NCBI GenBank assembly: GCA_027531565.1
Contig: JAPZSB010000007.1
Span: forward strand, 62,001-126,000
Direction: 5' to 3'
DNA from: Beijerinckiaceae bacterium
GTDB lineage: Bacteria; Pseudomonadota; Alphaproteobacteria; Rhizobiales; Beijerinckiaceae
Length of the DNA: 64,000 bases
A program made the position numbers and the translations under genes. Below are positions 19,047 to 21,984 of the stretch, in pieces. Numbering within the stretch: position 1 is the stretch's first letter; each line of letters opens with the position of its first letter. Under the pieces are notes generated by a model. It was given only the letters and a program-made list of their open reading frames with translations. It made no database searches and had not been told where the DNA came from.

Positions 19047-21431
19047 TTATCGGCAGGCACCCCGGGCCCGGAGTTCCGGCGTGCATTGCCCGATCGGGCC
19101 GGGCGCAGGCGGCCGGGCCGCGGGGGGCGGCGGTGGAGGGGCCGGCCGGGCCACGGGCGGAGGCGGTGGAGGGGCCGGCCGGGCCGCGGGCGGAGGCGGC
19201 GGCGCGGGGCGCGCAACCGGCGGAGGTGGCGGAGCGACAGGGCGCGCCACAGGCGGCGGTGGCGGGACCGGCCGCGCCTGCGGTGGGGGCGGTGCAGCCG
19301 CAGGAGGGCGTGGCACCGGCCGGAATTGCGGCGGCGGCTCGCCCGGACCGGGGCGGGGCGGAACCGGCCGGAACTGCGGCGGCGGATTCTGGGGCGGCGG
19401 GGCTCCGATCGGTCGCGGCGCCGAAGGCGGCACCGGCCGCGTCACGGCAGGCGGAGGCACCGCCCCCGGCGGTGGCCCCGCGGGTCTCGGCACGGCGCCG
19501 GGCGGGGAAGGCGGCGGTCCGCCGATCGGGCGCGGTCCCGTCGGGCCGGAAGGCCGGATGGCCCCCGGCGGCGGCGTGCCCACATGCGGCGTCACACCCG
19601 GCGCGGTCGTGCCCGGCGGAACGGCTGGCGGCGGGAGCGGGCCACCGGTCGGCGGGCGAACCCCCGGCGGCGGCGTGCCCACAGGCGGCGTCACACCCGG
19701 CGCGGTCGTGCCCGGCGGAACCGCCGGCGGCGGGAGCGGGCCACCGGTCGGCGGGCGAACGCCCGGCGGCGGCGTGCCGACAGGCGGCGTCACGCCCGGC
19801 GCGGTTGTGCCCGGCGGAACCGCCGGCGGCGGGAGCGGGCCACCGGTGGGAGGGGCGACGGGCGGCTGTGTGACCGGCCCCTGCCCGATCGGGCGGGTCG
19901 GGTTGCCGACAGGGAGGCCGACGGGAGGCGGAACGCCGATCGGGCGGGTGCCGGGCCGCGGCGGCGGCGGCAGCACGGTGCCCGGCGGCAGGACGGAGGG
20001 GCGCGGGGCGCGCGGCGGGGGGGCGACAGCCGGCCGGACCTCGCGCGGGCGGCGCCATTCCCGGTTGGCCCAGATCGCCGCACCGACAACCCCGGCGCCG
20101 ACAATCGCGGCCCCGATGCCGACCGACGGCAGTGTGCGGGCCTGCGGGTTGAGCGGCGGCGGGGGCAGCTCGATGATCTCGACCGGCGGCGGCGGCAGGA
20201 GATGCACCGCATAGCCGGAAGGCGGCGGCAGCACCTCCCAGCGCTCCTCGATCACCACCGTCTCGTAGACCTCGACCTCCTCGATATCCGGCGGCGGCAG
20301 GTCATCATAGATGATCTCGTCGAATTGCGGCGGCGGCACGATCGGCGCGGAGAGGCGCGTCAGGCGGGCCTGCGCCTCGACCGCATGGGCACCGCGCGGA
20401 TAGCGGCGGAGATAGGACCAGTAGGCCCGGTCGGTATTGGTGCGGCGCGCGCGCTGCCAGTAGAAGGCCTCGCGCCGCGTCGCCACCATGGCCCGGACCC
20501 GGCGCGCCTGCGCGTGGCGCGGATAGGCGCCGAGGAATTCCTCGTAGGCGGCGATCGTGTCGATCTCGACCGCGCGGGCATAGGCCTCGTCGCCGGGCAA
20601 TTCCCGGATCGGGCGGGCCCGCTTGGCCTCGAGCGCCGCCGAGGCGGCCGGCGCGGCCGTGCCCGGGAACAGCACGATGGGCTGCGACAGCCCGTTGATA
20701 TCCCATGGCGTTTCCACGCCCTGGCTGAGATCGTGCGTGCGGAGGCGGATGCGCTCGAACATCGCGCCGAGATCGATGCCCGGCTCCCGCAACACTTCGG
20801 CCAGCGCCATCGCATAATGCCCGTAATTGGTGGCCGGCAGGGGCGAGACGCGGTCCGGTGCCTGGTTGTAGGCCACCAGCATGCCCTCGCGCCGCTCGCC
20901 GGCGGCGAAGCCACGCCCGCCCTCGCCGGTCAGCTGGCCAAAGGGATGGGTATAGGCCGCATCGAGGATGACAACCCGGCCGGCAGCCGGAATCGCGCCG
21001 ATGGTGCGGATGAGATCGTTGATGCGGATCCCCTCGAGCGCGAGATCGGCGCGCTGGCGCAAGCGTGCATCGACGGGAATGAGCAGGTTCTCGCCATCAT
21101 CCTGGAAGCCGATGCCGGAGACATAGACCGCGATCAGCGCGTCCGGCCCTGCCGCCTGCGCCTTTTCGGTAAAGTCGCGGAAGGTGGCGCGGAATTCGGT
21201 CTGGTTGAGGTTGGCGGATTCGGTCAGCTCGAAACCGGCCTGCCGCAGGCTCTGGGCCACCAGCCCGGCATCCTGCAAGGCGGTCGGGTGCTTGACCTCG
21301 CCGTAATCGGCAAGGCCGATGACGAGGCCGAGCCGCTTGCCCTGCGCCATGGCCCCGGCAGGCAGCACGAACAGCGCGACGGTCAGGACGAGCCTGATCC
21401 AGCCGCGCTTCCGGGGGGAATGATCCTTCAT
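19047..21431 (-). CDS. exported caspase-fold protein lacking the catalytic dyad, with proline-rich tail
   Basis: A 794-residue secreted or envelope protein. After a signal peptide (about 1-29) comes a caspase/metacaspase p20-like domain (about 30-260): GKRLGLVIGLADYG, DGENLLIPVDA and GRVVILDA are classic peptidase C14 stretches. The histidine of the usual GHG is Ile107 (SGIGFQ) and the cysteine of DAC is Ala159 (LDAAYTHPF), so the domain should be proteolytically dead. A helical region follows. A glycine-zipper or membrane segment (about 435-455, VGIGAAIVGAGVVGAAIWAN) leads into about 330 residues dominated by Pro, Gly and Ala, including three 33-residue tandem repeats. It ends in an isolated two-Cys segment, CTPELRARGACR. 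The ATG at 21431 is chosen because the signal peptide starts there. A scaffolding or regulatory role is an inference. Confidence 0.88.
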   Translation of the reverse strand: MKDHSPRKRGWIRLVLTVALFVLPAGAMAQGKRLGLVIGLADYGEVKHPTALQDAGLVAQSLRQAGFELTESANLNQTEFRATFRDFTEKAQAAGPDALIAVYVSGIGFQDDGENLLIPVDARLRQRADLALEGIRINDLIRTIGAIPAAGRVVILDAAYTHPFGQLTGEGGRGFAAGERREGMLVAYNQAPDRVSPLPATNYGHYAMALAEVLREPGIDLGAMFERIRLRTHDLSQGVETPWDINGLSQPIVLFPGTAAPAASAALEAKRARPIRELPGDEAYARAVEIDTIAAYEEFLGAYPRHAQARRVRAMVATRREAFYWQRARRTNTDRAYWSYLRRYPRGAHAVEAQARLTRLSAPIVPPPQFDEIIYDDLPPPDIEEVEVYETVVIEERWEVLPPPSGYAVHLLPPPPVEIIELPPPPLNPQARTLPSVGIGAAIVGAGVVGAAIWANREWRRPREVRPAVAPPPRAPRPSVLPPGTVLPPPPRPGTRPIGVPPPVGLPVGNPTRPIGQGPVTQPPVAPPTGGPLPPPAVPPGTTAPGVTPPVGTPPPGVRPPTGGPLPPPAVPPGTTAPGVTPPVGTPPPGVRPPTGGPLPPPAVPPGTTAPGVTPHVGTPPPGAIRPSGPTGPRPIGGPPPSPPGAVPRPAGPPPGAVPPPAVTRPVPPSAPRPIGAPPPQNPPPQFRPVPPRPGPGEPPPQFRPVPRPPAAAPPPPQARPVPPPPPVARPVAPPPPPVARPAPPPPPAARPAPPPPPPVARPAPPPPPPAARPPAPGPIGQCTPELRARGACR
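19562..19858 (-). repeat. three 99-bp tandem repeats coding 33-residue Pro-rich units
   Basis: Near-identical units begin at 19562, 19661 and 19760 with an exact 99-bp period. They encode the unit PPTGGPLPPPAVPPGTTAPG followed by VTPPVGTPPPGVR inside the caspase-fold gene. Few substitutions separate the copies, implying recent duplication or gene conversion. The repeat is coding, not a CRISPR. Confidence 0.9.
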
Positions 21432-21519: not shown

Positions 21520-21984
21520 TCAGCGGCCGATCCGCGCGAGGGCCCGCAGCCTTTCCGTCGGGCGGGAGGCCAGCAGGTCATCGCAGGACCAGCGGCGCCC
21601 GCCATCGCCGTGGTCTTTCGGGTTGCCCTTCTCGACCGTCGCCAGCGCATTGAGCCGGCCGGTATCCGCCACTTTCAGGGCAAGGTTGTCACCGTTCCGC
21701 TCGACGGTGAAACAATAGGTGCGGCGGTCCTTGATCGGCCCGTAATGGTAGCAGACCTTGTCGCCATCGGTATTCCAGCAGGCATCGACATTCAGCGTCA
21801 GCCCGTTATCGCCCAAGGCCCGGCCATCCGGCGCGTGATACTCGCTGAACGGGCCGCCGGTCACGTAATGGCCGGTCACCGTGTTGCCGGTGAACAGCTC
21901 GCGGATCTGGGCGCCGGTGAGCATTTCGGCCTGGGCCGGCAGCGCCGGAAGGACGGCCAGGACGAGGGCGGGCAGGAGCCGCAT
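21520..21984 (-). CDS. small secreted protein of unknown function
   Basis: Not assigned to a named function. The 154-residue protein has a clear signal peptide (MRLLPALVLAVLPALPAQA). The mature part contains GAQIRELFTGNTVTGHY, which resembles a GNTV-type motif I associate with small exported alphaproteobacterial proteins, and four cysteines (DACWN, KVCYHY, TYCFTV, WSCDDL) that could form two disulfides. The ATG at 21984 is chosen because the signal peptide begins there. It starts 2 bp after the GST stop, so the two genes are coupled, and it is 88 bp ahead of the caspase-fold gene on the same strand. Confidence 0.82.
   Translation of the reverse strand: MRLLPALVLAVLPALPAQAEMLTGAQIRELFTGNTVTGHYVTGGPFSEYHAPDGRALGDNGLTLNVDACWNTDGDKVCYHYGPIKDRRTYCFTVERNGDNLALKVADTGRLNALATVEKGNPKDHGDGGRRWSCDDLLASRPTERLRALARIGR

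Follow-up and report, generated by a model that had tools for sequence, protein, structure and literature searches.

Proteins with a caspase fold (peptidase C14, p20 domain) in which the catalytic dyad is substituted, the pseudo-orthocaspases, are common in Rhizobiales: as described by Klemencic et al. in 2019 (PMC6426788, cited here and below from part of its text), this order accounts for 561 of the 582 alphaproteobacterial ones. The rate of intact dyads is lower in Alphaproteobacteria, at 75% (PMC3501461, likewise from part of its text). Here we describe P0001, encoded in a 64,000-nucleotide stretch of the genome of a Beijerinckiaceae bacterium (contig JAPZSB010000007.1, positions 62,001 to 126,000; the window). 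P0001 has both the caspase-fold p20 domain and the substituted dyad and belongs to this known kind; its helical repeat, its Cys tip and a head-less form in a relative are additions to it. With the alphaproteobacterial types YA, YS and HA (PMC6426788), the clade of P0001 shares a dyad-less p20, occurrence in Rhizobiales, a long C terminus and two acidic pocket residues. Set against those types are its conserved helical repeat, its terminal Cys pair and the lack of a family-level genome link to reaction-centre genes. The clade very probably overlaps the YA group of that paper, because YA is its most frequent type (41 of 93 orthologues). A preliminary description of P0001, made from the sequence alone, took it for a maintained pseudo-enzyme used as a scaffold or sensor; a scaffold role remains the best reading. 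Its opinion that it would be unusual for a bacterial envelope to contain a dead caspase is not supported, since pseudo-orthocaspases were already known to be common in Rhizobiales (PMC6426788).

A caspase fold without a catalytic dyad

By computation, P0001 combines an export-type start, a dead caspase fold devoid of Cys, a conserved repeat, a variable Pro-rich tail and a clade-specific terminal Cys pair. These features, all on the minus strand, are laid out as follows.

19047..21431, minus: whole gene P0001, 794 residues, translation without internal stop
21345..21431, minus: signal-peptide-like N terminus, residues 1-29, ending AMA/Q (judged by eye from the sequence, no predictor)
20703..21335, minus: pseudo-caspase p20 domain, residues 33-243 (Pfam PF00656 match)
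21111..21113, minus: Ile107, at the catalytic His position (alignment)
20955..20957, minus: Ala159, at the catalytic Cys position (alignment)
20352..20591, minus: two-hairpin helical repeat, residues 281-360, with RREA..W and YWSYLRRYPRGAH
20067..20123, minus: Gly/Ala-rich hydrophobic segment, residues 437-455, followed by NREWRRP (Kyte-Doolittle score KD19 2.0)
19562..19854, minus: 99-bp (33-residue) tandem repeat in the Pro-rich tail, 3.0 copies, 95% matches
19053..19085, minus: C-terminal Cys-pair tip CTPELRARGAC, residues 783-793, with the only Cys of the protein

The intact frame, the signal-peptide-like start and the Pro-rich tail listed in the preliminary description are thus all present, the tail with 165 Pro among the last 429 residues, and a Gly/Ala-rich hydrophobic stretch lies where it named a glycine-zipper or membrane segment. 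The start codon, ATG at 21431, has AAAGGAG before it; a scan for promoters and terminators found no promoter, and terminator-like sites at shuffle level. PF00656 scores 66.4 bits on residues 33-243, against a cut-off of 21.4, and is the only Pfam match of P0001, the p10 domain not having been sought on its own. In NCBIfam there is only a caspase match below threshold (25.2 bits versus 140), and phmmer against the sequences of the PDB gives no match at E <= 0.001. Both fold motifs noted earlier, DGENLLIPVDA and VVILDA, are in place. The preliminary description had proposed comparing the predicted fold with caspases, naming an unrelated fold as the outcome that would count against it; the structure model, examined with Foldseek and VIA, has a caspase fold. 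The paracaspase MALT1 (PDB 3uo8, 3v4o) is 16% identical to P0001, which lacks its catalytic residues and carries an export signal, a helical repeat and a Pro-rich tail where MALT1 has its own arrangement.

Alignment to active homologues bears out the two substitutions that had been read from the sequence. Active proteins have YSGHGxQ and LDACR, whereas P0001 has VSGIGFQ, with Ile107, and LDAAY, with Ala159; residues 1-782 contain no Cys at all, so that the His-Cys dyad required of an active peptidase is missing. Its orthologues lack the dyad too. The alignment comprises 134 rows (136 unique protein sequences minus two shorter than 300 residues), of which 93, at least 38% identical to P0001 in tblastn, are called orthologues; they are a sample, only part of the genome matches having been fetched. 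Whether the pair is lost across a clade was a question raised in the preliminary description, which also named homologues with an intact pair as an outcome that would count against it; no orthologue (0/93) has an intact dyad. Position 107 is occupied by Y, R, I, Q, V, L, H or E, with His kept in six orthologues, and position 159 by Ala in 87% and never by Cys.

In a tree of the 134 rows, built by a quick method and with long branches flagged, a single clade holds 100 of the 103 dyad-less rows, with a Shimodaira-Hasegawa-like approximate likelihood-ratio test (SH-aLRT) value of 99, and adjoins proteins with intact dyads. The three dyad-less rows outside it are L117_2 and L118_1, with His-Ala, and L028_1, with His-Thr. 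Because the dyad-less rows group in this way, the loss of the dyad is old and, for the most part, one event, with the His site drifting afterwards. The nearest clade in the tree consists of active orthocaspases of Hyphomicrobiales (L121, L122, L129, L113, L115, L117 and L118), which share the p20 domain and a less conserved repeat region, but have the HC dyad and no terminal Cys pair.

The p20 domain is under constraint. Its ratio of nonsynonymous to synonymous substitution (dN/dS; all such figures refer to p20) is 0.04, 0.06, 0.05 and 0.12 for P0001 against its four nearest orthologues, the check that the preliminary description had suggested; for distant pairs the median is 0.29 over 102 usable pairs, a value near saturation and not relied on. 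Many near-invariant residues lie away from the active site. Asp54 is kept in 78 of 78 rows and Asp157 in 79 of 79, and these two correspond to the two substrate-pocket Asp residues of TbMC2 as described in PMC6426788. With the low dN/dS, the dyad absent from 93 of 93 orthologues and the caspase fold predicted, P0001 is a maintained pseudo-enzyme and not a decaying one, as had been supposed.

The helical repeat, the Pro-rich tail and the Cys tip

Mean identity in p20 is nearly the same in the pseudo-caspase clade and its active sisters (0.548 in the clade versus 0.541 in the active sisters), whereas in the helical repeat it is 0.617 versus 0.376. Constraint on the repeat is thus raised relative to the active sisters, and the repeat is far more conserved in the pseudo clade. 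Its model bears a weak likeness to the TPR modules of BamD/YfiO and YbgF: PF13525 matches 5 of 65 clade members, BamD chains head the VIA list and the setting would be periplasmic. Unlike BamD/YfiO, the repeat of P0001 has two hairpins only, no lipobox is seen and the scores are weak.

The hydrophobic segment at residues 437-455 has low confidence in the structure model. A membrane span common to the whole clade was considered and rejected: 58 of 90 measured members reach a Kyte-Doolittle value of 1.6, many of them through PVPVFV stretches and not Gly/Ala zippers. The tail is Pro-rich and variable, with a median length of 425 residues (range 97-569) in 68 measured members.

At the extreme C terminus stand the two Cys residues of P0001, at 783 and 793, which the preliminary description had missed. 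Defined as C-x3-9-C with 0-4 residues after the last Cys, such a tip is present in 53 of the 70 clade members that are complete (10/10 in the genus and 43/60 outside it), the members being related and the counts therefore not independent, and in none of 27 complete HC proteins. Shuffled tails have it in 0.09 of 70 on average. In 60 of the 70 complete members the examined chain contains no other Cys. As a background, 8 of 211 open reading frames of the window end in a Cys pair in the same way. In C-terminal sorting of the PEP-CTERM type, many proteins of a genome share a terminal motif and a sorting enzyme is present. Across nineteen scanned stretches, a Cys-pair end was found in 17 of 219 signal-like open reading frames, and 15 of these 17 were P0001-type proteins or P0002, described below. 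A word look-up in the available part of PMC6426788 and a literature search aimed at such tails, limited to its listing, turned up nothing on paired terminal Cys, which is not proof of their absence from print. Papers listed under old product names likewise offered nothing specific.

Possible functions

P0001 is an exported, non-catalytic pseudo-orthocaspase of Hyphomicrobiales (Rhizobiales). We infer that it most likely serves as an adaptor or tether in the envelope, with a probability of about 0.5. The p20 domain and the repeat would together form a head at which a periplasmic partner or peptide docks, and within which p20 keeps both acidic residues of what would be a pocket for basic residues. 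The Pro-rich tail may be a flexible spacer that bridges distance, and in the periplasm, which is oxidising, the two terminal Cys could join into a small disulfide loop, offering a second binding or anchoring point.

A head-less form bears on this proposal. The genus in all counts given here is Rhabdaerophilum (96% match to a Rhabdaerophilum contig), and 15 of its 17 genomes have an orthologue. One of the other two, G011, is 78% complete; the second, G003, is 100% complete and is the only complete genome of the genus that lacks the caspase domain, with no p20 match. In G003 the slot of the pseudo-caspase gene, between the dehydrogenase and four-Cys genes, is occupied by P0002 (L169:7977-8783, in the same direction), a protein of 268 residues with a signal-peptide-like start, a Pro-rich body and the end CTPQMVQQKMC. 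P0002 contains neither a caspase domain nor the repeat and matches nothing in Pfam; its link to the clade is argued from position, make-up and tip. A tree built from four neighbour proteins places G003 together with the head-bearing loci L139-L142 (support 93/74, under the starred level), so that the head was more likely lost than gained. That G003 keeps arm and tip without the head suggests that these have a job of their own. Possible, though tentative, is a bolder reading in which the core is an exported arm, with a disordered Pro-rich spacer between the signal peptide and a disulfide loop at the end (CTPxx...C, or CGxPGxPPC in relatives), and the pseudo-caspase and repeat are a detachable reading head for basic peptides, fused to this arm.

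Several points weigh against the adaptor or tether. Of the 70 complete members, 17 have no tip that fits the definition. The tail of P0002 has no significant sequence match to the tails of the clade, and G003 is one genome. For the repeat, Foldseek gives no match at E <= 0.001, the top VIA Z score of 7.1 is under the level called safe for helical models, and P0001 itself gives no YfiO match. Moreover, the hydrophobic segment could be a membrane span that leaves the tail on the cytoplasmic side, and the tip would then remain reduced.

Among the alternatives, the most probable, though in our view rather unlikely, is a surface adhesin or structural protein of the cell wall, whose tail is the working part displayed outside and whose head only anchors it. 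The long low-complexity tail, the conserved tip, the persistence of the tail without the head in G003 and the one Rhizobium plasmid copy that adjoins curli genes would all suit such a protein. However, the head is strongly conserved across the whole order, beyond the need of mere anchoring, and no signal for export to the outer membrane was identified. Decay of a gene on its way out is scarcely tenable: both catalytic residues are lost and the domain is absent in G003, but frames are intact across the order, dN/dS is low in the nearest pairs (0.04-0.12) and invariant residues lie outside the active site.

c-FLIP is a decoy regulator of an active caspase, and a pseudo-caspase of this kind would pair with an active caspase and control it. 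The fold is that of caspases, 3h11_B, the caspase-8 side of the caspase-8:c-FLIP complex, is in both the Foldseek and the VIA lists, and some relatives have several C14 proteins. A decoy is nevertheless improbable, because 12 of the 15 genus genomes in which PF00656 matches at all have no C14 protein besides the pseudo-form; the host genome itself (3.67 Mb, 100% complete) has no PF00656 match besides P0001 and no CHAT match, other clan CD families not having been searched. About equally improbable is a role in photosynthesis, as PMC6426788 proposes for pseudo-orthocaspases with an argument that rests on order-level distribution. The host does have reaction-centre genes (two PF00124 matches, G000:C4:148958-150656). 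However, among 199 family genomes PF00124 occurs in 33 of 96 carriers (E <= 1e-40) versus 28 of 103 non-carriers (Fisher p = 0.29), and 63 of the 96 carriers lack it, G001, G010 and G015 from the host's own genus among them. A link to photosynthesis is therefore not borne out and has no support within the family sample, where a weak association would still be possible. PF00124 has no match in four genomes of the host's genus: G001, G010, G003 and G015.

Distribution, neighbourhood and significance

At E <= 1e-40, 96 of the 199 genomes sampled from the family have an orthologue, and orthologues also occur in other parts of the order Hyphomicrobiales; in a class-wide sample of 385 genomes, one genome outside the order passes 1e-40. 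One genome, G025, carries two pseudo-caspase copies in tandem on the same strand (L162, C1:2994217-2997626), 43% and 46% identical to P0001. On a Rhizobium leguminosarum conjugative plasmid, the orthologue (L109:5075-8403) has curlin/csgH genes on one side and a MipA/OmpV gene on the other.

As the preliminary description had it, P0001 sits in a leftward group with a secreted four-Cys protein, a GST and a nuclease (SNase). The nearest of these is the following.

21520..21984, minus: sec4C, exported four-Cys protein, same-strand neighbour without Pfam match, adjoining the gene in 14/14 genus loci examined

Within the span that each stretch covers, the 14 genus loci keep the gene order from cobS to the dehydrogenase, with exceptions that include L143 (no GST match) and L141 (no dehydrogenase match). 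The dehydrogenase is also close to the pseudo-caspase in 13 of the 89 loci from other genera, most with short flanks, and orthology is therefore supported. Coupling with the four-Cys neighbour was considered and rejected: strong matches to sec4C (E <= 1e-20) occur in 16 genomes outside the genus, among which G035 alone has the pseudo-caspase, and G003, with the four-Cys gene and no p20, also speaks against it. The four-Cys family occurs as two or three close-set copies in G027, G091, G113, G168, G183 and G197, in genera mostly without the pseudo-caspase.

Pseudo-proteases are known in bacteria and seldom understood. Here there is one old loss, a clean active sister group and a host often without any active caspase, together with three separable parts (pocket, repeat and Cys tip) and, in G003, a natural experiment with the head missing. 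The findings speak against treating pseudo-orthocaspases here as photosynthesis factors. If the exported-arm reading is true, it would mean a new class of Cys-tipped envelope tether across Hyphomicrobiales, and a protease fold turned sensor that was discarded in one lineage while the arm was retained.
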